From the NCBI GenBank assembly GCA_907163375.1, contig CAJQUW010000464.1, positions 26,808 through 90,807 on the forward strand: a stretch of DNA of 64,000 nucleotides. Direction: 5' to 3'. This DNA comes from Prostheceraeus crozeri. Taxonomy: Eukaryota > Platyhelminthes > Polycladida > Euryleptidae. Position 1 is the first letter of the stretch. The number at the start of each line of letters is the position of its first letter. Below the pieces are notes generated by a model that saw only the letters and a list, made by a program, of their open reading frames with translations, was not told where the DNA came from and did not search any database. Of this stretch, positions 3,201-61,809 are shown piece by piece. Made by a program: the position numbers and the translations under genes.

Positions 3201-5389
3201 AGCGTATATAAAATGGCAGTGCAAACGGTTATTCGGAAAGTGCTACTCTGAAATATTCTTTAGATATTTACTTGATGCAGCCTTGTCGATCGCAAGGGTG
3301 CCATCACAGTTTATTGAGTAATATAGTAAAAGATATTTGAAATTTGAATAAAAAACGATTGAACAATCATTCAGCTTATGGGATTTTCTTCTGATTAAAA
3401 CAAATATATTATGGTACGATGTGCTTCCTTTAAAGCTATAGGGCCTACAGAATATAGCGCTTTAAACTGAAGTAAGTGTTCTTTATTCAAATTTCAAATA
3501 TGATCGTCTTTCCGCACAATGGTAACCTCGTAGTAGAACAGTAGTTAGGCCTATACATTTGGTAAAATATTCCTACTAAAATTTTACTTTGTAGGATAAC
3601 ATTCATCAAGATTACAAAAACTGAGCCCTGCTATCCCAAGTAAACAGCAGAAGGGATGGACATCTTTCAAAAACACAATTTTTCATCTACAAAGAATTTA
3701 GCAAATGAAGAAAGCTTTACCACCATGCAATATGACGTTTATATAGTAGCACACATCGAACGATCAGATACAAATAATCTTGATGAAGATCACTTTTATC
3801 AACGTATATGGGAAATTTCTCTATCCGGATTTGATCATCCTTCATTTGAAAATCCTTCCAAACAGATAACATGCCCACAGCCCGAATGCGTATTTCACGT
3901 CATCTGGAACACTGTCATTTTGAATCGAACACCGTCGCGCCGTTATCAGTCACATTTTTAAGAATAGAGGTGATGCCACTTTCTCTGTTACAATTCAACA
4001 GAGAAACATTCACTACTCAAATGAAATTTGAGGCGATGATGCGAGGTCACTCAATAGTATCTATGGTTGGATCACCAGGCGCTTGTCCGAATCTGATGAT
4101 CACTTGGACGTTGCGAGTATAACAGACTAATGGGTAAATAAAATTCCAGTAGCTTTCGGGGCTAATTAGCTCAAATAACAAGACAGAAAAACAGCCGAAC
4201 GAAGGTCAGGTCTCGAGTCATCGATGCACAGATAAGACGAGCTTGCACAGCCTCAGCAATCAACACCTGTAAAAAGAAGACAACTTTTGTGCTGATGTGC
4301 AGAACAGAATTATCAAACTTAACTACCTCAATTAACATTCCCTGGGTAAGCCTACTCAAAGTTTAAAGGAGAAATCATTCATAGTAATATTAGGTGTTAT
4401 AGTAAAGATAATTAAGAAAATTGCTTTTGGATCATTTAATCTTTGACAATTTGGCATGCGATATTCACAGGAATTTTGATAGCAAATGAAGAAATTCAGG
4501 AGTGGCCGAATTGTGATCATTATCAATTTATTAATAATTTTCTAATCAATGCGCGTAGTATTTATCAATTTCATTCTGATATTCAAGTTACTTTTTTTTA
4601 GAAAAATGTGATTTGCAAATAAAAACGGAGTATGTAGCCTATTGCCGACCGGTTTTGCAACAGTTTATGCGATGAAGATATTCAGGAGCGCTTGAATTTT
4701 TATTATAAAATTGATACATGTAAATTCATTTTGATATCCAAACAGTTTTTTTAAAAATACAATCTACAAACACATACACACATAATATCCTCTTGTCTCT
4801 ACTATTTATATGACATCTCTTCAGGTAATTCATGGTGACATATGTGCATACAGCAAACATGTGACCATAATACCTAGGCCTACGATTATATTGAAAAGTG
4901 CGAAGCATGATGTGTAATCACAATGTAATGAGTCAACACAAATTCAGATGAAAGAGTAGCAATGAGTTTGCATTTTGATTGTTTTATACTGGTCGTAAAG
5001 CATGAAGAATTATTGATTAAATTGCACAACTAAACCCATTGTAGGGCTTTAACACAAAACTAGTCTTGTGCGCATAACTATACGGTGTGCATGTAGCCGT
5101 ATACAACGTGTAGTTCGTGGTGTAGCATTTATACCTTCAGTGTGCTTGATTATTTTTCTTAAACGACTCGAAATATCAAATTGATGGTACTTTTTTAAAT
5201 GTGGCAATTCTGAAATAAATAATTACCACAGGCGATAGCTACAGGTTTTCAATTCAATATAAATTAAAATGGAAATAATGACCTGTTTAAACATGTTTCC
5301 TTGATAGATGTATCTTTAAGAAACAATAGAAAAATTATACAACTTAAGCAGAAATCGAATAGCAATAATAATTTTCTTTTCACGACACA
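223..5389. other. Gene-poor host sequence
   Basis: About 5.2 kb of AT-rich sequence between the inverted Polinton fragment and the left end of copy A. Open frames are all short (about 110 codons or fewer), resemble no family I recognise and lack a convincing promoter or splice pattern. The only internal structure I can point to is the CAACGTTGA-rich patch near 2430-2630. GGCCTA-type words recur (for example 3450, 3550, 4878), which is common in some marine invertebrate genomes. Confidence 0.6.
2430..2630. repeat. Patch rich in CAACGTTGA-type palindromes
   Basis: The self-complementary core AACGTT and its flanks (TTGATTCAACG / CGTTGAATCAA) recur many times in both orientations over about 200 bp. 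This is what an old foldback or MITE-like repeat would look like. There is no coding potential, and no clear termini or target duplication were found. Confidence 0.5.
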
Positions 5390-6540
5390 AGTAGTAAGCA
5401 AAACTCCACCACTGGACCGCGCAAGATGGCCGCCGTCGCTGACGTCCCCCCCCTCTGGAACGCCAGAGTGTCGTGGTCGGCCGCCGTGTTGCTTCGAGTC
5501 CGACTCCCCCCCTCTGGAACGACAGAGTGTCGTGGTCGGCCGCCGTGGTGCTTCGAGTCTGACTCCCCCCCCTCTGGAACGACAGAGTGTCGTGGTGGTC
5601 TTGGGCGACCGCCAGGTTTTGTCTTGAGGCTATAGTGTGTGATGTTTTTCGTGCAATCTGATGAATTTTGGGTTGAAAATGGGCTGTTTCGAGTGGAAGC
5701 ATCGGATGAGAAAACGGAGGCCAGATTCGGATTCAGCGTGAAATTCTGCATCGGTATGGTGAATTTGAACGCAATCGGAGAGAAAAATTTTCGCTGACGT
5801 CCCCCCCCTCGGGAGAGCTCGCTTCGATTTTTGCTTCCAGTGGACGGATTTTGTCGTGCCATAGCTCGTTTGAAAGCTAAGAGTGAGACAAATTCAGTGA
5901 AAGAATCGACTTGTTCATATCTGTCTTCGTTTAGATGTGAGACGCCATTTAAGATTTTAGGTCGGAGCTCACCTGAAAAAATCCTAAGTGTCAGAGTGGC
6001 TTTGTATGGGCAAAATTTTGAAAATTTTCCAAAGTGGCGCATTTCGACCTGGGACCTTTACCAAAACATTTTTCATCAAATTTCGCTGACCCCCCCGACA
6101 GCGATCTTCTAACTTTGGTTCTAGTGGACAGATTTTGTCTTACAGCTACTCGTTTGAAAGAGGAGAAAAAACTGCTGGATGACATTTTTTGCCGCGAGTC
6201 AATCGGACCAACCGTTCAAAAGTTAGACCTGTTACAAGATTTTAGGTCGGAGCTCACCTGAAAAAATCCTAAGTGTCAGAGTGACTTTGTATGGGCAAAA
6301 TTTTGAAAATTTTCCAAAGTGTCGAATTTCGACCTGGGACCTTCACCAAAACATTTTTCATCAAATTTCTCTGAACGAGGGGGGGGGATGGGGGGAGTCA
6401 GTGAAATTTGATGAAAAATGTTTTGGTAAAGGTCCCAGGTCGAAATTCGGAAGTTTTAAATTTTTCAAAATTTTCACCACACTGGAGCTCTCACACTTAG
6501 GAATTTTTTCACTTGTGGCATGTTACATGGACATGTGCTG
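5390..6540. repeat. Left terminal repeat region, copy A
   Basis: It begins AGTAGTAAG, followed by the segment with GCAAGATGGCCGCC and C-runs ending CTCTGGAAC that is also found at both ends of copy B. After that come about two degenerate units of the roughly 300-bp repeat that copy B carries about six times (key words: GTGGACGGATTTTGTCGTGC, GTTTGAAAGCTAAGAGTGAG, CCAAAACATTTTTCATCAAA). It is shorter than the copy B array and diverged from it. Confidence 0.85.
6324..6448. repeat. Long palindrome at inner end of terminal repeat (A)
   Basis: Arms of roughly 45 bp (GAATTTCGACCTGGGACC... and its complement ...GGTCCCAGGTCGAAATTC, with CCAAAACATTTTTCATCAAATTT inside) are separated by a G-rich spacer. 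The last repeat unit has in effect been turned round. Copy B has the same palindrome at 25967-26089. Confidence 0.85.
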
Positions 6541-7315: not shown

Positions 7316-8482
7316 ATGGCTAATGACAGGAACCGCAAATTCCATATTAAGATGTGTACATGTGGGCGAATCAATCGCAGTGCGGACGCCAAGGCTCATA
7401 TCAAGAAGGCGGGCACCGACCACATGATTATCCTGAATAGGGTTGCGTGTGTGAAGTGCAGAGTGTTGAAGGGTGATGAGGATGAGGCGCGTTTCTACAG
7501 AGTGCATGCTGACTGTAGTGGAGGTTTGGTGAATGACGGGCGATTCACGCAGTTGATTGTTAAAGAGAGGGAGCGAATGTTGGCGATCGAGCGAGAGGGT
7601 AAGGTTGAGAATGTTGTTGAGAATGTTGTTGAGAATGATGAGTTGGCGAGAGCAGTTGCGTCGTTGGAGGCTGAGATTGAGCGAAAGAGAGTGCTTGAGA
7701 GTGATGATGAGGATGATGTGGATTTAGATAGGGAGCGTGTGAGGAAGTTGAGCTCTTCGTCGTCGGAGGTGTCAAACATTGTCATCACCGACCCCCCGAA
7801 GAGCTCATCTTCCCCAAAAGTGAAGAGTGGTGGGATTCATATGCAGTCGGCGAGGTGGTTGAAGGATGAAGAGAAGAAGCATGTTTCACAGCAGATGGTG
7901 CATCATTTGTTGGTGAATAAGTATGACAGTTTGAAGAAGGTGAAGGATGAAGTTGTGAAGGAGTTGGATGAGTTGAAAAAGAAGGAACTGAAGTCGAAGG
8001 AGGTAGCGGATGAGAATATACGAATGAGGCGTAGTGTGACTGATTTGAAGAATAAGACGCGAGAGTTGGAAGAGAAGAATGATGAGTGTGAGAAGAGGGC
8101 GAGTGATGCGGAGAGAAGAATTAGAGATGCAGAAGCGAAGTTTGAGGAGATGATGAAGGAGATGAGTGTGTTGAGAGCGAGGAATGTTGAGTCGGAGAGG
8201 AATGTGGCTCGACGGGGTGATGAGAGGCAGGCGTATGAGAAGTTGGAGCGCATGAGGGATGAGTGGAATCGTGTGAATGAGGATCGTTTGTTTGAGTTTC
8301 ACATCCCTATTCGGGATAATCATTTGGACGGCGAAGTACTCGTCAATCAAAATCTGCACGAGTCCATCCTATGTTATAACGGCCATCCGACGAAAAAATG
8401 TCTCCATGCCAGCCTGAGAATGCGCGGCCATCTGCACAAATTTTCTATTCGGAAGCGCGCGAGACTGCCAAAGGATGGCTAA
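7316..8482 (+). CDS. Zinc-binding/coiled-coil Polinton protein (A)
   Basis: This is a 388-aa protein starting MANDRNRK. Residues about 13-65 carry spaced Cys/His pairs (CTCG, CVKC, HADC) that look like a small zinc site. Residues about 75-330 are highly charged and heptad-like, rich in E, K and R, consistent with a long coiled coil, with a basic RKL/SSSS patch near 140. The last 60 residues (FEFHIPIRDN onwards) contain a second Cys/His cluster. No enzyme signature is visible and I do not know the family. The gene is first in the left arm, has a TATA box and introns in both UTRs, and is followed by an HDV-like ribozyme. Copy B encodes a near-identical 392-aa protein. A nuclear or replication-associated role is only a guess. 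Confidence 0.75.
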   Translation: MANDRNRKFHIKMCTCGRINRSADAKAHIKKAGTDHMIILNRVACVKCRVLKGDEDEARFYRVHADCSGGLVNDGRFTQLIVKERERMLAIEREGKVENVVENVVENDELARAVASLEAEIERKRVLESDDEDDVDLDRERVRKLSSSSSEVSNIVITDPPKSSSSPKVKSGGIHMQSARWLKDEEKKHVSQQMVHHLLVNKYDSLKKVKDEVVKELDELKKKELKSKEVADENIRMRRSVTDLKNKTRELEEKNDECEKRASDAERRIRDAEAKFEEMMKEMSVLRARNVESERNVARRGDERQAYEKLERMRDEWNRVNEDRLFEFHIPIRDNHLDGEVLVNQNLHESILCYNGHPTKKCLHASLRMRGHLHKFSIRKRARLPKDG

Positions 8483-8486
8483 CTTG

Positions 8487-8546
8487 GTAAGTAAAAAGTA
8501 AATAAGATAGTATATCCTATTCTAATACATATCATTTTCATTGCAG
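8487..8546 (+). other. 3' UTR intron of the coiled-coil gene (A)
   Basis: GTAAGT begins 4 nt after the TAA stop, and the acceptor is TTTTCATTGCAG. The 60-bp interval is kept in copy B (28107-28167). Its position between the stop codon and the ribozyme means the spliced RNA would still contain the ribozyme. Confidence 0.6.
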
Positions 8547-8619
8547 ATCTTTGCCCGCCTTCACCACCCCATCACGTCACTCCCGAGAACGAACCATCGG
8601 CTCTCTTAAGGGCCACCTA

Positions 8620-8688
8620 GGGGCAAGACATGATAGAACCTCCACGCGGTTTGCCCTGGGCAGTCTTTGGACTGGCGAATACTATCAT
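8620..8688 (+). ncRNA. HDV-like self-cleaving ribozyme A1
   Basis: The sequence folds as the HDV nested double pseudoknot. P1 is GGGGCAA with TTGCCCT, including the G1-U wobble typical of HDV. P2 is ATGATAG with CTATCAT. P3 is ACC/GGT, closed by loop TCCACGC. CTGGGC after P1 supplies the P1.1 G pair. P4 is AGTC/GACT with loop TTTG. J4/2 is GGCGAA, with the catalytic C expected at 8676. The predicted cut is just 5' of G8620. It lies about 140 bp after the coiled-coil stop codon. Differences from the other copies fall in loops L3 and L4. Confidence 0.9.
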
Positions 8689-8739
8689 TAAGTTGAATCT
8701 GCTATCAGTCAACTACAACGTTGCGTCGCGTTAGAGGGG

Positions 8740-8747
8740 TATATAAA
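8740..8747 (+). promoter_or_regulatory. TATA box of the 88-aa gene (A)
   Basis: TATATAAA, 39 bp before the ATG at 8779 and about 50 bp after the end of ribozyme A1. It is conserved in copy B at 28361. Confidence 0.7.
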
Positions 8748-8778
8748 CCAATGCCTCTCATTTCATTTCATTTCAATC

Positions 8779-9045
8779 ATGCAGACGCCGAACAGTCAAG
8801 TCAGCTCTCCTCGCGGACCGCAGTTAAGGCCGCGAAATATATTTGAGGAGTTTGTCAGGCTAGAGGAGCAAGACAGAGTCCACAATAATCTTGCTCGGAT
8901 TGGCAATCCGATGACAGCAACTGCTGTCAATCCAACGGAATGGCGCTACATTCCACTTTTTAGCCATGTACCAGTTAGTGTGGAATTCGAAAGTGCTACC
9001 AAAGAGAGAGTCAAAGACTCTCTCAGCAGAATTGGTAGGGTGTAA
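8779..9045 (+). CDS. 88-aa left-arm protein (A)
   Basis: A small intact frame starting MQTPNSQVSS, with a helical, charged middle (EEFVRLEEQDRV) and ending SLSRIGRV. No family is recognised. Reality is supported by 95% or better identity to the copy B frame over its whole length, a TATA box at promoter distance and a ribozyme 51 bp after the stop. Differences between copies are mostly conservative (HNN/FNN, EFES/EVDS). The function is unknown. Confidence 0.65.
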   Translation: MQTPNSQVSSPRGPQLRPRNIFEEFVRLEEQDRVHNNLARIGNPMTATAVNPTEWRYIPLFSHVPVSVEFESATKERVKDSLSRIGRV

Positions 9046-9095
9046 GATGACGTTACTCCCGAGAACGAACCACCGGCTCTCTTAAGGGCCACCAT

Positions 9096-9164
9096 GGGGC
9101 AAAATTTGATAGAACCTCCTCGCGGTTTGCCCTGGGCAGTCTTCGGACTGGCGAATACTATCAT
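9096..9164 (+). ncRNA. HDV-like self-cleaving ribozyme A2
   Basis: Same fold as A1. P1 is GGGGCAA/TTGCCCT, P2 is TGATAG/CTATCA, P3 is ACC/GGT with the HDV-identical loop TCCTCGC, P4 is AGTC-TTCG-GACT, and J4/2 is GGCGAA with the catalytic C expected at 9152. The J1/2 and outer P2 bases differ (AATT in place of GACA), which shortens P2 by one pair but keeps it formed. It is placed 51 bp downstream of the 88-aa stop codon. Confidence 0.9.
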
Positions 9165-9263
9165 TAAGTTGAATCTGCTATCAGTCAACTTGAACGTTAT
9201 GCAGTCGATTGCTATCCCTGAAGCATTCTGATTCGCTGTTGAGCAATTCATTGTTGAAAACCC

Positions 9264-9270
9264 TATGTAA
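9264..9270 (+). promoter_or_regulatory. Degraded TATA box of the 84-aa gene (A)
   Basis: TATGTAA stands where copy B has TATATAA (28885), 42 bp before the ATG. A single A-to-G change probably weakens this promoter in copy A. Confidence 0.5.
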
Positions 9271-9311
9271 GCCAGAAGATTGTAGCGCTTCTCATTCAAT
9301 TTCAAGTCACG

Positions 9312-9566
9312 ATGGAAGCGACATCTGCCGACAACATTCCCGTCTTCATCGATGAAGACAATGCTATTCCCGAGTTCGTCATCCTCGACGAGTGGGATGA
9401 AGAGGATGATAAGAAGGGGAAGATCGAGAAGATTGTTTGGACGGATGGGGTGTGGACTCCAAATACCACTCGCATCCGAAAGGTGCCAGATGCACCAGCA
9501 CGACCTCGGCGGTATAGGGTCTATGACAACCTAACCGTCATACCCATTGACTATTCCAGCCAATAG
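9312..9566 (+). CDS. 84-aa acidic left-arm protein (A)
   Basis: An intact small frame starting MEATSADNIP, with an acidic central stretch (DEWDEEDD) followed by a basic one (ARPRRYRVYD). I recognise no family. The frame is kept in copy B (29-30 kb) with mostly conservative changes, and it sits between a TATA-like box and a ribozyme, as its left neighbour does. The function is unknown. Confidence 0.65.
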   Translation: MEATSADNIPVFIDEDNAIPEFVILDEWDEEDDKKGKIEKIVWTDGVWTPNTTRIRKVPDAPARPRRYRVYDNLTVIPIDYSSQ

Positions 9567-9621
9567 TCAACTTAAATTCACACCCCGAGAACGAACCATC
9601 GGCTCTCTTAAGGGCCACCAT

Positions 9622-9690
9622 GGGGCAAGACATGATAGAACCTCCTCGCGGTTTGCCCTGGGCAGTCTTCGGACTGGCGAATACTATCAT
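9622..9690 (+). ncRNA. HDV-like self-cleaving ribozyme A3
   Basis: Full match to the HDV-type core. P1 is GGGGCAA/TTGCCCT, P2 is ATGATAG/CTATCAT, P3 is ACC/GGT with loop TCCTCGC, P4 is AGTC-TTCG-GACT, and J4/2 is GGCGAA with the catalytic C expected at 9678. The predicted cut is before G9622. The ribozyme follows the 84-aa stop codon by 55 bp. A conserved 40-nt leader (CCCGAGAACGAACC...) and a 3' hairpin (AAGTTGA...) frame it, as in the others. Confidence 0.92.
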
Positions 9691-9749
9691 TAAGTTGAAT
9701 CTGCTATCAGTAAACTTGAACGTTGCAAATGAAGTTCGGTGTAATACTT

Positions 9750-10064: not shown

Positions 10065-10482
10065 CGTAGTCTAACAAGCTCTTTACACATGGATCGCAGT
10101 CGATTGCTATCCCTGTATAAGTGTAAGCTATCTTAATTTTATTTAACACTATTTCATCTATTATCATCATCATCGTCCATATGAAATGTTTTAAGATTTA
10201 CAAGTTAGACCGAGCGTGCTACTATTTCCAAATGAAAAAGTATACATGGTTAAATCATCCACTTAAGCCCATCCGTAGTCTAACAAGCTCTTTACACATG
10301 GATCGCAGTCGATTGCTATCCCTGTATCAGAAGTGTAAGCTATCTTAATTTTATTTGACACTATTTCATCTATCATCATCGTCCATATGAAATGTTTTAA
10401 GATTTACAAGTTAGACTAAGCGTGCTACTATTTCCAAATGAAAATGTATACATGGTTAAATCATCCACTGAAGCCCCGTTCA
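10065..10482. repeat. Tandem duplication of about 209 bp (A)
   Basis: Two successive units begin CGTAGTCTAACAAGCTC, at 10065 and 10274, and run through GATCGCAGTCGATTGCTATCC to the AAATCATCCACT end. Copy B carries the same duplication (29682 and 29894), so it predates the split of the two copies. No gene lies in it. It separates the ribozyme block from the divergent small gene. Confidence 0.9.
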
Positions 10483-10526: not shown

Positions 10527-10919
10527 TTATGGCATGTATTTCAAAAGGTCTTCATCGTCAATATCGTCCCAGAGTCTGGCTTCACATAGATAACAAAAAC
10601 AGTTCACTTGCTTTAATCGTTTTTCCACTGCGAGCCTCACTTTGTCAATATACTCCCACTCCGCCATAGTTCGTGGCTGGGAGTTAGGGGTGTACCACTC
10701 CCATAATTGGTGGAGGAACTTGGTGCTGGTGATCTCCATCACATCGTCAGTATCGTACTGGAGATACTTCCACCTCACGCCTGTTAAGTTGGGACACTCC
10801 TTCTCACATACACTCTCTTCGTTGTCCGCTGGTAATGACACCTCTACCTTCGTTGGAGCGTTTGGTGTTGAGGATGGAGAAGAGAATTTTGTGTTTGGTG
10901 TTGTCGGAGGGCTTGTCAT
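10527..10919 (-). CDS. 130-aa acidic protein divergent from polymerase (A)
   Basis: Starts MTSPPTTPNT. The conserved core is LTGxRWKYLQYD, then WEWYTPNSQPRT, ending CxCxLCExRLWDDIDDEDLLKYMP, where the Cys pairs could bind a metal. I do not know its family or function. It is transcribed away from the polymerase gene from a shared intergenic region (10920-11176). A TTTATT (AATAAA on its strand) just after the stop is a likely poly(A) signal. Copy B has a 145-aa version with a longer variable middle, showing that only the ends are constrained. Confidence 0.7.
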   Translation of the reverse strand: MTSPPTTPNTKFSSPSSTPNAPTKVEVSLPADNEESVCEKECPNLTGVRWKYLQYDTDDVMEITSTKFLHQLWEWYTPNSQPRTMAEWEYIDKVRLAVEKRLKQVNCFCYLCEARLWDDIDDEDLLKYMP

Positions 10920-23867: not shown

Positions 23868-26230
23868 AGTAGTAAGAAAACGGCGAACACCAGATAGCGC
23901 AAGATGGCCGCCATCGCTGACGTCCCCCCCCCTCTGGAACGGCGGAGTGCCGTGGTCGGCCGCCGTGGTGCTTCGGGTCTGAGTCCCCCCCTCTGGAACG
24001 ATAGAGTGTCGTGGTGGACTTGGGCGACCGCCAGGATTAGTCTTGAGGCTATAGTGTGTGATGTTTTTCGTGCAATCTGCTGAATGTTGGGTTGTAAAAT
24101 GGGTTGTTTCGAGTGGAAGGAGTGGTCGGATGAGAAAACGGAGGTCGGATTCGTATTCAGCGTGAAATTCTGCATCGGTAGGGTGAGTTTCAAGGCAATC
24201 GGAGAGAAAAAATTTTCGGCTGACGTCCCCCCCCCTGGACAGCTTGCTTCGATTTTGGCTTCCAGTGGACGGATTTTGTCGTGCGATAGCTCGTTTGAAA
24301 GCTAAGAGTGAGACAAATTCAGTGAAAGAAACGGCTTGTTCATATCTGTCTTCATTCAAAAGTTAGAGCGGTTACAAGATTTTAGGTCGGAGCTCGCTCA
24401 CCTAAAAAAATCCTAAGTGTCAGAGTGACTTTGTATGGGTAAAATTTTGAAAATTTTCCAAAGTGTGGAATTTCGACCTGGGACCGTCACCAAAACATTT
24501 TTCATCAAATTTCACTGACCTCCCCCCCCCTCTGGACAGCTTGCTTCGATCTTGGCTTCCAGTGGACGGATTTTGTCGTGCGATAGCTCGTTTGAAAGCT
24601 AAGAGTGAGACAAATTCAGTGAAAGAATCGGCTTGTTCCTATCTGTCTTCATTCAAAAGTTAGAGCGGTTACAAGATTTTAGGTCGGAGCTCGCTCACCT
24701 GAAAAAATCCTAAGTGTCAGAGTGGCTTTGTATGGGTAAAATTTTGAAAATTTTCCAAAGTGTGGAATTTCGACCTGGGACCGTCACCAAAACATTTTTC
24801 ATCAAATTTTGAAATTTCACTGACGTCCCCCCCCTCTGGACAGCTTGCTTCGATCTTGGCTTCCAGTGGACGGATTTTGTCGTGCGATAGCTCGTTTGAA
24901 AGCTAAGAGTGAGACAAATTCAGTGAAAGAAACGGCTAGTTCCTATCTGTCTTCATTCAAAAGTTAGAGCGGTTACAAGATTTTAGGTTGGAGCTCGCTC
25001 ACCTGAAAAAATCCTAAGTGTCAGAGTGACTTTGTATGGGTAAAATTTTGAAAATTTTCCAAAGTGTGGAATTTCGACCTGGGACCGTCACCAAAACATT
25101 TTTCATCAAATTTTGAAATTTCACTGACGTCCCCCCCCCTCTGGACAGCTTGCTTCGATCTTGGCTTCCAGTGGACGGATTTTGTCGTGCGATAGCTCGT
25201 TTGAAAGCTAAGAGTGAGACAAATTCAGTGAAAGAAACGGCTTGTTCCTATCTGTCTTCATTCAAAAGTTAGAGCGGTTACAAGATTTTAGGTCGGAGCT
25301 CGCTCACCTGAAAAAATCCTAAGTGTCAGAGTGACTTTGTATGGGTAAAATTTTGAAAATTTTCCAAAGTGTGGAATTTCGACCTGGGACCGTCACCAAA
25401 ACATTTTTCATCAAATTTCACTGACCTCCCCCCCCCTCTGGACAGCTAGCTTCGATCTTGGCTTCTAGTGGACGGATTTTGTCGTGCGATAGCTCGTTTG
25501 AAAGCTAAGAGTGAGACAAATTCAGTGAAAGAAACGGCTTGTTCCTATCTGTCTTCGTTCAAAAGTTAGAGCGGTTACAAGATTTTAGGTCGGAGCTCGC
25601 TCACCTGAAAAAATCCTAAGTGTCAGAGTGACTTTGTATGGGTAAAATTTTGAAAATTTTCCAAAGTGTGGAATTTCGACCTGGGACCGTCACCAAAACA
25701 TTTTTCATCAAATTTCACTGACCTCCCCCCCCTCTGGACAGCTAGCTTCGATCTTGGCTTCTAGTGGACGGATTTTGTCGTGCAATAGCTCGTTTGAAAG
25801 CTAAGAGTGAGACAAATTCAGTGAAAGAAACGGCTTGTTCATATCTGTCTTCATTCAAAAGTTAGAGCGGTTACAAGATTTTAGGTCGGAGCTCGCTCAC
25901 CTGAAAAAATCCTAAGTGTCAGAGTGGCTTTGTATGGGTAAAATTTTGAAAATTTTCCAAAGTGTGGAATTTCGACCTGGGACCGTCACCAAAACATTTT
26001 TCATCAAATTTCTCTGAACGAGGGGGGGAGGGGGGGAGTCAGTGAAATTTGATGAAAAATGTTTTGGTAAAGGTCCCAGGTCGAAATTCGGAAGTTTTAA
26101 ATTTTTCAAAATTTTCACCACACTGGAGCTCTCACACTTAGGAATTTTTTCACTTGTGGCATGTTACATGGACATGTGCTGACGGACCAACTTCCCGTGA
26201 TCATATGAGAATGGTTCAGGTGTCATATTG
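23868..26230. repeat. Left terminal repeat array (B)
   Basis: After the terminal segment, a unit of about 300 bp repeats roughly six times. The word CTGGACAGCT(T/A)GCTTCGAT recurs near 24235, 24532, 24836, 25140, 25438 and 25735. Each unit contains C-runs, GTGGACGGATTTTGTCGTGC, AAGTTAGAGCGGTTACAAG and CCAAAACATTTTTCATCAAA. The array ends in the inverted half-unit (palindrome 25967-26089). Units differ by only a few bases, indicating recent homogenisation. Confidence 0.9.
25967..26089. repeat. Long palindrome at inner end of terminal repeat (B)
   Basis: Same structure as 6324-6448: the arm GAATTTCGACCTGGGACC... with CCAAAACATTTTTCATC is mirrored after a G-rich spacer. A hairpin or cruciform of about 45 bp could form. 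Confidence 0.85.
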
Positions 26231-26923: not shown

Positions 26924-28102
26924 ATGGCTAATGACAGGAACCGCAAATACCATATTAAAATGTGCTCATGTGGGCGAGTTAATCGCAGTGCGGACGCCAA
27001 GGCTCATGTCAAGAAGGCGGGCACCGGCCACATGATTATCTTGAATAGGGTTGCGTGCGTGAAGTGTAGAGTGCTGAAGGGTGATGAGGATGAGGCGCGT
27101 TTTTACAGAGTGCATGCTGACTGTAGTGGTGGTTTAGTGACTGATTTGAGATTTACGCAGTTGATTGTGGAAGAGAGGGAGCGAATGTTGGCGATCGAGC
27201 GAGAGGGTAAGGCTGAGAATGTTGTTGAGAATGTTGTTGAGAATGATGAGTTGGCGAGAGCGGTTGCGTCGTTGGAGGGTGAGATTGAGCGAAAGAGAGT
27301 GCTTGAGAGTGATGATGAGGATGATGTGGATTTAGATAGGGAGCGTGTGAGGAAGCGTGTGAGGAAGTTGAGCTCTTCGTCATCGGAGGTGTCAAACATC
27401 GTCATCACCGACCCCCCGAAGAGCTCATCTTCCCCAAAAGTGAAGAGTGGTGGGATTCGTGTGCAGTCGGCGAGGTGGTTGAAGGATGAAGAGAAGAGGC
27501 ATGTTTCGCAGCAGATGGCGCATGATTTGTTGGTGAATAAGTATGAGAGTTTGAAGAAAGTGAAGGATGAAGTTGTGAAGGAGTTGGATGAGTTGAAAAA
27601 GAAGGAACTGAAGTCGAAGGAGGTGGCGGATGAAAACATTAGAATGAGGCGTTGTGTGACTGATTTGAAGAATAAGACGCGAGAGTTGGAAGAGAAGAAT
27701 GATGAGTGTGAGAAGAGGGCGAGTGCTGCGGAGAGAAGAATGAGAGATGCAGAAGCGAAGTTTGAGGAGATGATGAAGGAGATGAGTGTGTTGAGAGCGA
27801 GGAATGTTGAGTTGGAGAGGACTGTGGCTCGGCGGGGTGATGAGAGGCAGGCGTATGAGAAGTTGGAGCGCATGAGGGATGAGTGGGAACGTGTGAATGA
27901 GGATCGTTTGTTTGAGTTTCACATCCCTATTCGGGATAATCATTTGGCCGGCGAAGTACTCGTCAATCAAAATCTGGACGAGTCCATCCTATGTTATAAC
28001 GGTCATCCGACGAAAAAATGCCTCCACGCCAGCCTACGAATGCGCGGCCATCTCCACAAATTTTCGATTCGGAAACGCGCGAGACTGCCAAAGGATGACT
28101 AA
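26924..28102 (+). CDS. Zinc-binding/coiled-coil Polinton protein (B)
   Basis: A 392-aa protein. Start chosen at MANDRNRK because it follows the leader intron and matches copy A. It has N-terminal CSCG, CVKC and HADC Cys/His pairs, then a long E/K/R-rich coiled coil, then a C-terminal Cys/His patch (LCYNGHPTKKCLH). A four-residue basic duplication (RKRVRK) near residue 140 is absent in copy A and makes a stronger candidate nuclear signal. Function unknown. It is followed by ribozyme B1. Confidence 0.75.
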   Translation: MANDRNRKYHIKMCSCGRVNRSADAKAHVKKAGTGHMIILNRVACVKCRVLKGDEDEARFYRVHADCSGGLVTDLRFTQLIVEERERMLAIEREGKAENVVENVVENDELARAVASLEGEIERKRVLESDDEDDVDLDRERVRKRVRKLSSSSSEVSNIVITDPPKSSSSPKVKSGGIRVQSARWLKDEEKRHVSQQMAHDLLVNKYESLKKVKDEVVKELDELKKKELKSKEVADENIRMRRCVTDLKNKTRELEEKNDECEKRASAAERRMRDAEAKFEEMMKEMSVLRARNVELERTVARRGDERQAYEKLERMRDEWERVNEDRLFEFHIPIRDNHLAGEVLVNQNLDESILCYNGHPTKKCLHASLRMRGHLHKFSIRKRARLPKDD

Positions 28103-28167: not shown

Positions 28168-28240
28168 ATCTTTGCCCGCCTTCACCACCCCATCACGTCA
28201 CTCCCGAGAACGAACCATCGGCTCTCTTAAGGGCCACCTA

Positions 28241-28309
28241 GGGGCAAGACATGATAGAACCTCCACGCGGTTTGCCCTGGGCAGTCTTCGGACTGGCGAA
28301 TACTATCAT
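28241..28309 (+). ncRNA. HDV-like self-cleaving ribozyme B1
   Basis: P1 GGGGCAA/TTGCCCT, P2 ATGATAG/CTATCAT, P3 ACC/GGT with loop TCCACGC, CTGGGC joining region, P4 AGTC-TTCG-GACT and J4/2 GGCGAA, with the catalytic C expected at 28297. The predicted cut is before G28241. Against A1 the only core difference is the P4 loop (TTCG for TTTG). Confidence 0.92.
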
Positions 28310-28360
28310 TAAGTTGAAACTGCTATCAGTCAACTTGAACGTTGCGTCGCGTTAGAGGGG

Positions 28361-28399: not shown

Positions 28400-28666
28400 A
28401 TGCAGACGCCGAACAGTCAAGTCAGCTCTCCTCGCGGACCGCAGTTAAGGCCGCGAAATTTATTTGAGGAGTTTGTCAGGCTAGAGGAGCAAGACAGAGT
28501 TTTTAATAATCTTGCTCGGATTGGCAATCCGATGACAGCAACTGCTGTCAATCCAACGGAATGGCGCTACATTCCACTTTTTAGCCATGTACCAGTTAGT
28601 GTGGAAGTCGACAGTGCTACCAAAGAGAGAGTCAAAGACTCTCTCAGCAGAATTGGTAGGGTGTAA
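28400..28666 (+). CDS. 88-aa left-arm protein (B)
   Basis: MQTPNSQVSS... ending SLSRIGRV; the same length as copy A with four or five substitutions and no indel. No family recognised. It is bracketed by its own TATA box and ribozyme B2, so it is probably a true short gene. Confidence 0.65.
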   Translation: MQTPNSQVSSPRGPQLRPRNLFEEFVRLEEQDRVFNNLARIGNPMTATAVNPTEWRYIPLFSHVPVSVEVDSATKERVKDSLSRIGRV

Positions 28667-28716
28667 GATGACGTTACTCCCGAGAATGAACCATCGGCTC
28701 TCTTAAGGGCCACCAT

Positions 28717-28785
28717 GGGGCAAGACATGATAGAACCTCCTCGCGGTTTGCCCTGGGCAGTCTTCGGACTGGCGAATACTATCAT
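28717..28785 (+). ncRNA. HDV-like self-cleaving ribozyme B2
   Basis: Complete HDV-like core: P1 GGGGCAA/TTGCCCT, P2 ATGATAG/CTATCAT, P3 loop TCCTCGC, P4 AGTC-TTCG-GACT and J4/2 GGCGAA, with the catalytic C expected at 28773. It lies 51 bp after the 88-aa stop codon. Confidence 0.93.
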
Positions 28786-28884
28786 TAAGTTGAATCTGCT
28801 ATCAGTCAACTTGAACATTATGCAGTCGATTGCTATCCCTGAAGCATTCTGATTCGCTGTTGAGCAATTCATTGTTGAAAACCC

Positions 28885-28891
28885 TATATAA
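28885..28891 (+). promoter_or_regulatory. TATA box of the 84-aa gene (B)
   Basis: TATATAA in AACCCTATATAAGCCAG, 48 bp before the ATG at 28933; mutated in copy A. Confidence 0.65.
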
Positions 28892-28932: not shown

Positions 28933-29187
28933 ATGGAAGCGACATCTACCGACAACATTCCCGTCTTCACCGATGAAGACAACGCCATTCCCGAGTTCGT
29001 CATCCTCGACGAGTGGGATGAGGAGGATGAGAAGAAGGGGAAGATCAAGAGGATCGTTTGGACGGATGAGGTGTGGACTCCAAATACCACCCGCATCCGA
29101 AAGGTGCCAGATGCACCAGTACGACCTCGGCGGTATAGGGTATACGAGAACCTAACCGTCATACCCATTGACTATTCAAGCCAATAG
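28933..29187 (+). CDS. 84-aa acidic left-arm protein (B)
   Basis: MEATSTDNIP..., with the acidic DEWDEEDEKK stretch and the basic VRPRRYRVYE stretch, ending IPIDYSSQ. Same length as copy A. Unknown family. It is followed after 51 bp by ribozyme B3. Confidence 0.65.
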   Translation: MEATSTDNIPVFTDEDNAIPEFVILDEWDEEDEKKGKIKRIVWTDEVWTPNTTRIRKVPDAPVRPRRYRVYENLTVIPIDYSSQ

Positions 29188-29238
29188 TCATCTTGTTACT
29201 CCCGAGAACGAACCATCGGCTCTCTTAAGGGCCACCAT

Positions 29239-29307
29239 GGGGCAAGACATGATAGAACCTCCTCGCGGTTTGCCCTGGGCAGTCTTCGGACTGGCGAATA
29301 CTATCAT
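29239..29307 (+). ncRNA. HDV-like self-cleaving ribozyme B3
   Basis: Complete HDV-like core identical to B2 in all paired and catalytic parts, with the catalytic C expected at 29295. A perfect trailing hairpin AAGTTGA-AT-CTG-CTAT-CAG-TCAACTT follows from 29311. Confidence 0.93.
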
Positions 29308-29366
29308 TAAGTTGAATCTGCTATCAGTCAACTTGAACGTTGCAAATGAAGTTCGGTGTAATACTT

Positions 29367-29392: not shown

Positions 29393-29681
29393 GCGGCGGT
29401 GAAACCCGTAGCTATGTATACCGCAAGGGACATTCGGCAATGGTCAATCTTGTTAAACCTCTCTGCGTCATGTTTGCAAGTGATTGCCTCTGTCTCAACG
29501 TAGTATGCATTCGCGTCAGGGCGACATTTAGCCAACTGTCGAAGGTTGCCTAAAACTTTCCATTGCATACGTTATGAGAACCATGAGTTCTACCTGTCTC
29601 TATCAATGAGACGAATTGATGAATGGAATGAAATGGGAGGACACTCACGCGCCACACGCAACATAACACACTTCTCTCTTC

Positions 29682-30105
29682 CGTAGTCTAACAAGCTCTT
29701 TACACATGGATCGCAGTCGATTGCTATCCCTGTATCAGAAGTGTAAGCTATCTTAATTTTATTTGACACTATTTCATCTATTATCATCATCATCGTCCAT
29801 ATGAAATGTTTTAAGATTTACAAGTTAGACTAAGCGTGCTACTATTTCCAAATGAAAAAGTATACATGGTTAAATCATCCACTTAAGCCCATCCGTAGTC
29901 TAACAAGCTCTTTACACATGGATCGCAGTCGATTGCTATCCCTGTATCAGAAGTGTAAGCTATCTTAATTTTATTTGACACTATTTCATCTACCATTATC
30001 ACCCATATGAAATGTTATAAGATTTGCAAGTTAAACTAAGCGTGCTACTATTTCCAAATGAAAAAGTATACATGGTTAAATTATTCACTAAAGCCCCATT
30101 CAAGT
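29682..30105. repeat. Tandem duplication of about 212 bp (B)
   Basis: Units begin CGTAGTCTAACAAGCTC at 29682 and 29894; the second unit is more diverged. Same arrangement as 10065-10482. No gene. Confidence 0.9.
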
Positions 30106-57639: not shown

Positions 57640-59001
57640 GCCTCCGTTTACCCATCCGAGCCTTCGTTTTGGTGCTACAGCCCAAAACGTCCCAAATTCT
57701 AACTCTGTCGTTTTTCGCCAATGTCCCAAAATCTTAAATGGCGTCTCACATCTAAACGAAGACAGATAGGAACAAGCCGATTCTTTCACTGAATTTGTCT
57801 CACTCTTAGCTTTCAAACGAGCTATCGCACGACAAAATCCGTCCACTAGAAGCCAAGATCGAAGCTAGCTGTCCAGAGGGGGGGGAGGTCAGTGAAATTT
57901 GATGAAAAATGTTTTGGTGACGGTCCCAGGTCGAAATTCCACACTTTGGAAAATTTTCAAAATTTTACCCATACAAAGCCACTCTGACACTTAGGATTTT
58001 TTCAGGTGAGCGAGCTCCGACCTAAAATCTTGTAACCGCTCTAACTTTTGGACGAAGACAGATATGAACAAGCCGTTTCTTTCACTGAATTTGTCTCACT
58101 CTTAGCTTTCAAACGAGCTATTGCACGACAAAATCCGTCCACTAGAAGCCAAGATCGAAGCAAGCTGTCCAGAGGGGGGGGGAGGTCAGTGAAATTTGAT
58201 GAAAAATGTTTTGGTGAAGGTCCCAGGTCGAAATTCCACACTTTGGAAAATTTTCAAAATTTTACCCATACAAAGTCACTCTGACACTTAGGATTTTTTC
58301 AGGTGAGCGAGCTCCGACCTAAAATCTTGTAACCGCTCTAACTTTTGAACGAAGACAGATAGGAACAAGCCGATTCTTTCACTGAATTTGTCTCACTCTT
58401 AGCTTTCAAACGAGCTATCGCACGACAAAATCCGTCCACTGGAAGCCAAAATCGAAGCAAGCTGTCCAGAGGGGGGGGACGTCAGCCGAAAATTTTTTCT
58501 CTCCGATTGACTTGAAACTCACCATACCGATGCAGAATTTCACGCTGAATCCGAATCTGACCTCCGTTTTCTCATCCGATGCTTCGTTTTGACGCTACAC
58601 ACCAAAACGTCCCAAATTCTAACTCTGTCGTTTTTCGAAAAATGTTGAAAATTTTTTCTCACCGATTGCCTTGAAACTCACCCTACCGATGCAGAATTTC
58701 ACGCTGAAAACGAATCCGACCTCCGTTTTCTCATCCGACCACTCCTTCCACTCGAAACAACCCATTTTACAACCCAACATTCAGCAGATTGCACGAAAAA
58801 CATCACACACTATAGCCTCAAGACTAATCCTGGCGGTCGCCCAAGTCCACCACGACCGACACTCTATCGTTCCAGAGGGGGGGGGACTCAGACCCGAAGC
58901 ACCACGGCGGCCGACCACGACACTCTGCCGTTCCAGAGGGGGGGGACGTGAGCGATGGCGGCCATCTTGCGCTATCTGGTGTTCGCCGTTTTCTTACTAC
59001 T
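57640..59001. repeat. Right terminal repeat array (B)
   Basis: Inverted copy of the left array, with about three 300-bp units (AGCT(A/T)GCTTCGATCTTGG complements near 57860, 58155 and 58458), then an extra partial repeat of the CCTCCGTTT(T/A)C region and the terminal segment ending CTTACTACT. It is shorter than the left array, so the inverted repeats are asymmetric in unit number. Confidence 0.9.
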
Positions 59002-59507: not shown

Positions 59508-60035
59508 AACATAGAAATAAACTGTTTATCTGAAGTTGACTAGAATCATAGAAATTGACAACAATAAAACCTCTAGAATGGAAATTAAGCTTCATGCAAT
59601 GCACAATAACGGCACATAAATCGCACGCATTTTAACTTAGATGCACCTGCCAACGTCTGTATCATTGGGTTAGAATCAGTCACATGAGTAAATCGAAGCT
59701 TTTCATTGGTTCTTCATGCCCCAACTTAGTTCCCTCGGATGTGCCGCGACCTTGAGTCAATTTCCATTCTAGCGAACTTCAGATAAACAGTTTATTTCTA
59801 TGACTAGAATGGAAATTGACTCAAGGTCGCGGCACATCCGAGGGAACTAAGTTGGGGCATTAAGAACCAATTAAAAGCTTCGAGTTACTCATGTGACTGA
59901 TTCTAACCCAATGATACAGACGTTGGCAGGTGCATCTAAGTTAAAATGCGTGCGATTTATGTGCCGTTATTGTGCATTGCATGAAGCTTAATTTCCATTC
60001 TAGAGGTTTTATTGTTGTCAATTTCTATGCTCATG
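59508..60035. repeat. Large nested palindrome upstream of piggyBac
   Basis: About 59573-59774 and 59804-60003 are inverted copies of about 200 bp, nearly identical (differences such as GGTTCTTCATG/CATTAAGAACC). Outside and between them GAAATAAACTGTTTATCTGAAG (59512) and its complement (59779) and CATAGAAATTGACAACAATA (59549) and its complement (60009) pair as well. The result is a snap-back of about 500 bp running into the start of the transposase. It may be a foldback element or a rearranged transposon end. Confidence 0.85.
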
Positions 60036-61809
60036 AATAACTGTAATTACGAGTCAGAGGACGAGGATATGATTTTTAACGACCAAGTTGATAACCAGAT
60101 CAATAATGACATGCCTACGACAAGTGACAGCGGCGATATCGAAGCTGATTCACCCGAGCTCGAAAACGATGATGACGACGTGCTTGATGAATCATACCTT
60201 GTTGACGCTGAAATGGAATATTGCAGGAGTGATGATGATGATATTGATGGTGGACCCAGTGTTCAGTATTCCTCTTCATCTGGACATATTTGGAGTACAC
60301 TTCCTCCGAATCCTCAAGGCCGTGCCGCATCTACAAACATAGTTCGTTTTTACAGTGGTCGGAAACCAGGCCTCAATCCACGAACCGAGCGAGAATCCGT
60401 TATCATTATTCTTGATTGCATCATCGACGATATTTTGTTATATTCTAATCTGCATGGCCGTCGTATTATTCAGAAATGGAATCTATCTCATGTTAAAAAG
60501 AAACAATGGAAGTCTATAGATCGTGTTGAATTCGAAGCCTTCCTTGGACTATTGATCGTCACTGGTGCATTTCGTGCTAAGTACCGTAATGTTGAAGAGT
60601 TGTGGTCTCTGAGAGACGGCTTCGCGATCTGCCGATCAACAATGACTATGGAGCGCTTTCTGCAGATCAAATCAGCACTCCGGTTTGATGATCCTCGCCG
60701 AAGAGACAGAAGTGACGCTCTTGCTCCTATCAGGCACATAAGTGAGATATTCAACAAAAATCTTCGATATATTTACACTCCTGGACCCTGGCTTACAATT
60801 GATGAGCAATTACTTGAATACCACGGAAAAGTAAGGTTCAAACAATATATTTCGTCTAAGCCTGGTAAATTTGGCATGAAGCTTATATGGCTTTGCGATG
60901 CAGAAACATTTTACGCCGTCAATTGTGTAATTTACATTGGTGCGGATACAATCATACCAGGATTTGTTTTTACCTCAAAATCTGTGACACGGCATTTGCT
61001 CGAGCCTTATTTTGGATCCGGACGTCACCTAACTGGATATAATTGGTTTTCTTCCATTGACCTTGTTACTGAGTTGAAAGAGCGAAATATTTCATACATT
61101 GGTACTATCCGAAAAAATAGAAAGGGTGTTCCACAAATAGCTACCTCCACTGATGGACGCATTCGAAAGGATACTCGGATCTTCTATGATAACAACGGTA
61201 CTACGCTGGTTTCATTTTGGGGTAAGGGTGCATCACCAGTCGTGCTAATTGATTCTCTAAATAAGATTGTGCCGAGACCAGATCTGAATTCTAAACCGGT
61301 AACTGTTCTGCAGTACAATGCCACAAAATCTGGTGTTGATATTTTCGACAAACGCGTACGTGGATTTTCCTGCAAAAGAAAACGCAATCTTCTCAAATAT
61401 GACTGATATATCCACCAACAATGCCTGCATTATATTTAACCAAGAAAGAGAAGGAAGTCGTAGGCAGGAGCAGCATTACAATTTTCTCAAAACTGTCGGG
61501 TACCAATTGGTGCATGAGCATATCTTGCGTCGACTTTCTACTGATAAATTGAGTGAATCAACCAAGATATCCTTGAAATGTATCGGATATAATACAAGCC
61601 CACAAGTTGATATCACACCAATCCGCTTCGAAAAGCCAAAGCGTTGCTATTTTTGTGATTGGCGGAAGGATAAAAAACTTACTGGGCATGCCCCAAATGT
61701 AATCATCCACGATGTCAAGATCATCGATAAGATTTGTGCAAACAATGCCAAATTTAGGCAACGTGTTTTGGTAATTAGTTATACATCGTATATCCTTGCG
61801 GCATTGTGA
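60012..61809 (+). pseudogene. piggyBac-type transposase, broken
   Basis: The acidic N-terminus, then VEFEAFLGLLIVTGAFRAKYR, FDDPRRRDRSDALAPIR, WLTIDEQLLEYHGKVRF (first catalytic Asp), SKPGKFGMKLIW and SGVDIFDKRV (third Asp) define a piggyBac DDD transposase. The position of the second Asp (normally DNWFTS) reads GYNWFSS, a Tyr. The frame ends at 61406 and continues in another frame (TDISTNNACIIFNQ... to a KRCYFCDWRKDKK Cys region), so there is a frameshift near 61395, and the zinc tail has lost expected Cys residues. It is not active as read. Confidence 0.88.

Follow-up and report, generated by a model that had tools for sequence, protein, structure and literature searches.

The stretch analysed here (the window) comprises 64,000 nucleotides of the flatworm Prostheceraeus crozeri (contig CAJQUW010000464.1, positions 26,808 to 90,807) and contains two long related copies, A and B, of one mobile element, which can be aligned from window positions 5786 and 25413 over 9,595 columns at 86.6% identity. 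Near the left end of each copy lie three tandem genes on the plus strand, and the same module of about 141 nt stands behind each of them, while the genes themselves are unlike one another. Each module carries a hairpin resembling that of histone mRNAs and, directly behind it, a predicted self-cleaving ribozyme of the hepatitis delta virus (HDV) type; this pair and its possible use as an mRNA 3′ end are the subject of this report. Pairs among the six modules differ at 1–10 positions of the 141-nt core.

Gene 1 occupies 7316..8482 in copy A (388 aa) and 26936..28102 in copy B, and its predicted structure is a long coiled coil (helix 178–322) with the rest at low confidence. In copy A an apparent 60-nt intron of the 3′ untranslated region (8487–8546, GTAAGT...TTGCAG), recognised by its GT...AG ends only, lies between the stop codon and the hairpin. 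Gene 2 (8779..9045, 88 aa, in copy A; 28400..28666 in copy B) ends 29 nt before its hairpin in both copies, and for gene 3 (9312..9566, 84 aa, in copy A; 28933..29187 in copy B) the distance is 34 nt in copy A and 30 nt in copy B. None of the left-arm genes was recognisable as a histone in domain searches. Comparison of the two copies gave too few codon differences in the small open reading frames (ORFs) to speak for or against selection, with eight synonymous and eight non-synonymous in gene 3 and one and four, respectively, in gene 2.

The predicted ribozymes lie on the plus strand, three in copy A (A1, 8620..8688; A2, 9096..9164; A3, 9622..9690) and three in copy B (B1, 28241..28309; B2, 28717..28785; B3, 29239..29307). 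An earlier reading of the letters (the original prediction) had placed HDV-like elements at the three sites of copy A, and its coordinates proved exact. Cleavage is predicted at 8619^8620, 9095^9096 and 9621^9622. In A1, P1 is formed by 8620–8626 and 8651–8657, P2 by 8631–8636 and 8682–8687, P3 by 8638–8640 and 8648–8650, and P4 by 8661–8665 and 8670–8674; L3 spans 8641–8647, P1.1 pairs C8642-C8643 with G8658-G8659, and J4/2 (8675–8681) holds the predicted catalytic C8676, the equivalents of which are C9152 in A2 and C9678 in A3.

Every sequence feature by which an HDV-like fold is recognised, from the G1-U wobble, P1, P2 and P3/L3 to P1.1, P4 and the GGCGAAU cytosine of J4/2, is present in all six copies. 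P1 is a 7-bp helix (GGGGCAA/UUGCCCU) with the G1-U wobble at the predicted cut, and this G-U recurs in 12 of 12 rows when the window copies are aligned with phage ribozymes (see below). P2 (UGAUAG/CUAUCA) crosses P1 and, together with P1.1 (CC/GG), makes by its pairing a nested double pseudoknot in every copy. P3 (ACC/GGU), L3 (UCC(U/A)CGC), P4 (CAGUC/GACUG) and J4/2 (GCGAAUA, which includes the predicted catalytic cytosine) are likewise found in six of six, and the P4 loop is UUCG in five. The L3 loop had been given as TCCTCGC throughout; this is true of the second and third copies in each element, but the first copy of each reads TCCACGC. The fold is intact in all six copies, A2 losing just one outermost extra pair of P2.

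A descriptor of this fold was written after the sequence had been seen. It requires a P1 of seven out of seven pairs starting with G, P3 of three out of three, a C in L3, GG after the second strand of P1, P4 of at least 4 bp, the motif (G/C)CNRA and P2 of at least 5 bp. On both strands of the 64 kb it matched exactly six sites, A1–A3 and B1–B3, and it gave no match in 200 dinucleotide shuffles of the window. Five of the 69 ribozyme positions vary among the six copies, and these avoid the helices: with P2 counted as 6 bp all five fall among the 23 unpaired positions (chance 0.003), and with a 7-bp P2 four of the five fall among 21 (chance 0.03 for four or more).

These substitution patterns bear on the view that the module is maintained at the level of DNA, serving as a common promoter or a unit of recombination, or is a repeat in decay that retains an ancestral ribozyme fold of no present importance. 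The occurrence of one module after three unrelated genes would suit such a view, and so would the 17-nt stretch at the edge of module 3, just before it, where 54% substitutions between copies A and B suggest exchange between modules. An inverted repeat (AAGTTGA...TCAACT) directly after each ribozyme, identified by alignment on the plus strand and largely kept in all six modules (8690..8715, 9166–9191, 9692–9717, 28311–28336, 28787–28812 and 29309–29334), points the same way; its A3 copy folds at -5.5 kcal/mol (z -1.4). Yet the variable ribozyme positions keep clear of helices and no copy has lost the fold, and we hold this view to be highly improbable. Divergence between copies A and B is 0.7–3.9% in the modules and 1.8–6.3% in neighbouring parts, reaching 0% in an 88-nt intron-like stretch; because it is not clearly lower in the modules, we draw from it no argument for selection. 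As a separate observation, the loop of the inverted repeat repeats the CTATCA of P2.

The original prediction had proposed scoring with the Rfam covariance models and had taken the lack of any hit as a refutation. At the gathering cut-offs no Rfam family matched at the ribozymes, so that read strictly there is no hit. Below these cut-offs, RF00094 (25.0–29.6 bits, cut-off 50) and RF02682 (26.5–27.5 bits, cut-off 44) aligned full-length and in register on A1–A3, with E-values of 0.012–0.53 in a 1.6-kb stretch. When the whole window was scanned with E up to 10, RF00094 listed four and RF02682 five of the six copies, each copy being found by at least one of the two (E 0.49–6.9).

For comparison, IMG/VR viral contigs with HDV-like ribozymes were gathered by core-letter patterns (13 loci, then 23), and loci without a fitting P1 and P2 were dropped before alignment. 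One further locus (L025), which had fitted the pairing parse by chance-like pairing, was left out of the alignment and gave no model match at E 1 or better. A covariance model built from eight of these ribozymes, referred to here as the phage-trained model, finds 14 IMG/VR sites at 46.8–82.5 bits, eight of which are its own training and alignment rows. The sites lie in L018, L019, L028, L030, L031, L006, L011 and L013, the last with five on the plus strand within about 3.1 kb (2851, 3353, 4884, 5396 and 5919); the L011 site scores the same as the L006 site. Half of the 14 (in L006, L011 and L013, three loci) lie in sequence where Rfam reports no HDV family at gathering. Since seven sites of the same fold are missed in this way, missing the gathering cut-off is not strong evidence against the fold in the window. 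The descriptor, run over 284 kb of IMG/VR contigs, recovered 10 of the 14 strong sites and none beyond those of the model. In the window the phage-trained model lists A1 (23.0 bits), A2, B1 and B2.

Four window and eight phage rows were then compared over 20 pairs in five helices against 500 shuffles. Standard pairs fill 98.8% of cells, vs. 75.6% in shuffled alignments and 35–48% when the strands are slid by 1–3 columns; doubly changed cells number 57 vs. 21, and the covariation score is 0.649 vs. 0.228. As the phage rows had been located through their core letters and retained partly for their P1/P2 pairing, this comparison is partly circular and is supportive rather than independent proof. 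With the defining sequence features present in every copy and the weak listing of four by the phage-trained model, the HDV-like identity proposed originally is supported, and on sequence grounds we regard these ribozyme folds as very probably real.

A feature beyond the original prediction stands in the 21 nt before every predicted cut, where all six copies read GGCUCU CUUA AGGGCC followed by ACCAU or ACCUA. The hairpins, all on the plus strand and all returned by a motif scan, lie in copy A at 8599..8614 (gene 1, followed by ACCUA), 9075..9090 (gene 2, ACCAU) and 9601..9616 (gene 3, ACCAU), and in copy B at 28220..28235 (gene 1, ACCUA), 28696..28711 (gene 2, ACCAU) and 29218..29233 (gene 3, ACCAU). 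Each has the marks of the histone stem-loop, namely a 6-bp stem with a GG...CC base, a 4-nt YUUH loop and ACC behind. A strict form of this motif, also written after the sequence had been seen, occurs six times in the window, always before a ribozyme, and never in 1000 shuffles; a looser form finds the same six sites, vs. 0.051 expected per shuffled window. The Rfam histone model RF00032 (Histone3) lists the three hairpins of copy A at 18.9, 20.7 and 18.1 bits for genes 1, 2 and 3 (cut-off 34; E 0.011–0.1 in 1.6 kb) and, over the whole window, all six (E 0.45–4.1), in every case below gathering. The model also spans about 20 nt behind the hairpin, a stretch that is here occupied by the ribozyme. 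Folding of 25 nt around the A3 hairpin gave the six-bp stem at -8.5 kcal/mol (z -2.9).

In Caenorhabditis elegans the histone hairpin loop is CTTT, with CTTA in four H2B genes, and most histone mRNAs lack poly(A); the mRNA ends, which carry a 3′-OH, lie 3–6 nt behind the hairpin and follow A or U (PMC1924863). Here the ribozyme is predicted to cut at a distance of 5 nt, following U in four copies and A in two, so that both the CUUA loop and the predicted end match the C. elegans range, although the comparison is with the worm and its loop may not be that of the host's own histones. The same work describes an AATCC element behind the worm hairpins; in the roughly 30 nt behind the six hairpins of the window no such worm-type element was found, and the ribozyme stands there instead. 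Because this downstream element is absent, we do not claim the module as an ordinary histone 3′ end. For the same reason, and judged against the worm element only, it seems scarcely credible that the host's U7-type histone machinery processes the hairpin, with the ribozyme held in reserve or standing beside it without any functional connection, even though the hairpin that such machinery would need is present.

Counting AATAAA and ATTAAA within 400 nt behind the stop codon only, we found neither behind any left-arm gene (six in all, three kinds each present in both copies), vs. 8 of the 13 other long ORFs of the element; both small minus-strand ORFs, at 10527 and 30147, also have one. TATA-type boxes are found 39 nt before the ATG of gene 2 in both copies (8740 and 28361) and 48 nt before that of gene 3 in copy B (TATATAAG at 28885). 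In copy A, what stands upstream of gene 3 is a degenerate box, TATGTAAG. The boxes nearest to gene 1 (6684 and 26325) lie 632 and 611 nt before its ATG in copies A and B, and their use would require a leader intron.

The promoter evidence bears on the idea that the ribozymes cut a longer transcript and that the downstream product, made up of the ribozyme and the next gene, is what matters. In the retrotransposons R2 and L1Tc, 5′-terminal HDV-like ribozymes free the element from a longer shared transcript in this manner (PMC8256844), and genes 1–3 follow one another on the same strand, each separated from the next by a ribozyme. Against this, a TATA-type box stands between ribozyme and next ATG at 8740, 28361 and 28885, which might let the next mRNA begin downstream of the ribozyme, an argument limited by the abundance of such boxes and by the degenerate one of gene 3 in copy A. 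Behind the third ribozyme, the next plus-strand ORF of at least 200 aa is as far away as 11699, and release from a co-transcript would leave the histone-type hairpin before each cut unexplained. We consider this idea quite unlikely.

With the fold, the hairpin, its spacing, the position behind three unrelated genes in two copies and the 400 nt free of AATAAA and ATTAAA all in place, we think it probable that the ribozyme acts in place of cleavage by the U7 small nuclear ribonucleoprotein (snRNP) and CPSF73 and gives the three left-arm genes histone-type mRNA ends that lack poly(A) and are bound by the stem-loop binding protein (SLBP). In this scheme each left-arm gene would be transcribed as its own unit, the transcript would fold behind the stop codon, and the ribozyme would cut just before GGGGCAA. 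The upstream mRNA would be left with the hairpin and ACCAU or ACCUA and no poly(A). In form and length this end would match that of mature histone mRNAs, and it would arise in cis, with no need for U7 snRNP, CPSF73 or a poly(A) signal. Host SLBP would be expected to bind the hairpin and to support stability, export and translation as it does for histone mRNA, and we infer that such ends are in use in vivo. From HDV chemistry, the upstream product should carry a 2′,3′-cyclic phosphate and not the 3′-OH of normal histone mRNA, which could alter uridylation, trimming or decay; a 3′ terminus blocked in this way might not be subject to the decay and the cell-cycle control that act on genuine histone mRNA. 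The wider proposition, that a virus-like animal DNA transposon owns a protein-free histone-type 3′-end device in which a ribozyme replaces U7 snRNP and CPSF73 and leaves an SLBP-ready, poly(A)-less, blocked end, we favour on balance, with less assurance.

Several observations weigh against this interpretation. The six copies are near-identical duplicates, and their conservation therefore says little. Neither the ribozyme nor the hairpin matches reach the Rfam gathering cut-offs, with whole-window E-values of 0.45–6.9. In that scan, repeats drew sub-threshold matches to unrelated (microRNA) families with better E-values, as low as 4.6e-8; for this reason the Rfam scores alone would not carry the case. 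The listing by the phage-trained model is weak (20.0–23.0 bits, E 0.019–0.063) and omits A3 and B3. The same model scores L012 and L014 at 20.2 bits, although these two contigs combine the core letters with only six of the seven P1 pairs and were not counted as ribozymes; we therefore regard this test as weak. In the covariation alignment, pairs changed on both sides number 13 vs. 10.7 in shuffles, a value reached by 28 of 500, and further pair types show no excess (18 vs. 18.6). The A3 hairpin still forms when more flank is included, but with z of only -1.6 and -1.2. A poly(A) signal is likewise missing behind five of the 13 other ORFs, namely the 15288 ORF (with one 18 nt ahead of its stop), the capsid-like ORFs of copies A and B, the integrase of copy B and the 48509 ORF. 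The TATA-type pattern is frequent, with 43 plus-strand occurrences in the window, and the boxes are therefore weak and only suggestive evidence. No homologous module was found in another species among the viral, phage, bacterial and archaeal sequences searched.

A further point of this kind comes from the phage ribozymes. In all eight that were folded, of the 14 found, a hairpin stem ends 0–4 nt before the cut without histone signals, and it thus seems that an end made of hairpin plus ribozyme occurs without a histone link; two of the eight stretches do not fold clearly better than shuffles (z about -1). About seven of these eight are then followed, by eye, by a ribosome-binding-like stretch and ATG or GTG, and ARAGORN found no tRNA in L006, L011 or L013; the phage sites may be a non-tRNA relative of theta ribozymes, making hairpin-ended mRNAs. 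These hairpins make the 3′-end reading of the window modules more likely and the SLBP reading less certain. They also suggest that the hairpin could be a generic element protecting the 3′ end or insulating the folding, rather than an SLBP site, with the likeness to histones arising from convergence on a stable GC hairpin. However, the phage hairpins vary in sequence and in stem length (5–9 bp), whereas the letters in the window fit the histone consensus (GG..CC, 6 bp, YUUH and ACC; 0 of 1000 shuffles), the loop is the CUUA of worm H2B, and the distance to the cut is 5 nt. It is because of these letters, loop and distance that we retain the SLBP reading and deem a generic hairpin unlikely. As an observation apart, L013 also contains a Twister-sister ribozyme at 4519–4587, some 300 nt ahead of one of its HDV-like ribozymes; RF02681 scores it at 55.3 bits, which exceeds the gathering cut-off.

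Searches for relatives covered several collections. No relative of the module or of the proteins of the element was found in IMG/VR viral contigs (by pattern and with the PolB-like, ORF1 and capsid-like proteins), in bacterial and archaeal genome contigs (by pattern) or in phages (at the protein and DNA level). Histone-hairpin pattern matches in two viral contigs (L001 and L002) had no adjacent ribozyme by eye and no descriptor match, and were taken as chance. No precedent for a natural 3′ end combining a ribozyme with a histone hairpin was found in the literature searched, which included few subscription journals and is not proof of absence.

We keep the label Polinton/Maverick-like for the element, and the evidence for it is uneven. 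Copy B encodes a retrovirus-like integrase (PF00665 rve, E 8.3e-11), and the other hallmarks are weaker: an ATPase-like ORF matches Pox_A32 at E 0.03, and the model of the capsid-like ORF has a pLDDT of 36.6, too low for a fold search. A 1272-aa ORF contains an endonuclease VII domain and had no polymerase match in Pfam, PHROGs or PDB; by eye it carries DTDS and NSLFG, which we take to be family B polymerase motifs.

Other features of the window include a fragment of a third copy of the element at 1–218, on the reverse strand and 97.7% identical to 29413–29628. The left arm contains a tandem repeat of about 206 bp (10065–10476 and 29680–30096), which shares CAGTCGATTGCTATCCCTG with sequence ahead of gene 3 (at about 9202) and may be a regulatory unit. 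Satellite arrays of 297 bp lie in opposite orientation at 24227–26017, near the start of copy B, and at 57755–58485, and the ORF at 60012–61406 encodes a DDE_Tnp_1_7 (piggyBac-type) transposase domain (E 3.4e-51). The sub-threshold matches to microRNA families at 59735–59845, 6334–6438 and 25977–26079, the first inside a near-perfect inverted repeat (59547–60029), are probably palindromic repeats rather than microRNAs.

If the proposed mechanism is correct, it would add a further route to an animal mRNA 3′ end, made by an RNA enzyme within a mobile DNA element, and would give HDV-like ribozymes a concrete role in the gene expression of animal genomes. The histone hairpin followed by an HDV-like ribozyme offers a signature for screening further animal genomes and viruses. 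HDV-like ribozymes are listed for Caenorhabditis japonica, Pristionchus pacificus, sea urchin, lancelet, lamprey and Chilo iridescent virus (PMC8256844), and these nematode, sea urchin, lancelet, lamprey and iridovirus examples would be worth rechecking for a histone hairpin upstream. Both halves of the module are known; their pairing and its use by a mobile DNA element are, as far as we searched, new.

Like Polintons/Mavericks, the present element has a retrovirus-like integrase, a large ORF with polymerase-like motifs and putative ATPase-like and capsid-like ORFs; it differs in its predicted ribozymes and histone-type ends. We found neither feature described for Polintons in the literature searched, including the accessible text of PMC6431247 and PMC11071296, in agreement with the original prediction, which knew of no such ribozymes as a repeated Polinton part. 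With the HDV-like ribozymes (HDV, R2, theta and drz) the fold shares P1 with its G1-U, P2, P3/L3, P1.1, P4 and the J4/2 cytosine. The roles named for that class in the text available are in rolling-circle RNA, retrotransposon 5′ release and tRNA 3′ ends, with mRNA biogenesis and gene regulation mentioned loosely (PMC8256844, PMC10879173), whereas the present copies stand at the 3′ ends of three protein genes of a DNA element, directly behind a histone-type hairpin. Theta ribozymes are comparable in that the 3′ terminus of a structured RNA from a DNA virus is likewise set by a small ribozyme of the HDV-like class; in the text available of that work (PMC10879173), however, the hosts are bacterial, the RNA is a tRNA and not an mRNA, and no histone signal is mentioned.

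The 3′ end of replication-dependent histone mRNA offers the second comparison. The module has its 6-bp stem, 4-nt loop and ACC, a predicted end 5 nt on and no close poly(A) signal, but it carries a predicted ribozyme in place of the cutting machinery (U7 snRNP, CPSF73), lacks AATCC, follows genes that are not recognisable as histones and would leave an end with a cyclic phosphate. A parallel exists at the bench, where a defined 3′ terminus for a histone stem-loop RNA was obtained by fusing it to an HDV ribozyme (PMC12775136). In a reporter system on HDV-ribozyme plasmids, a histone stem-loop alone performed about as well as a 40-A tract (ratio 1.06), the ribozyme in that particular plasmid being unstated in the text available (PMC10908868). 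In the bench construct of PMC12775136, as proposed here, an HDV ribozyme releases a histone stem-loop 3′ end; that construct is man-made and has a shortened stem, whereas the present module is genomic.

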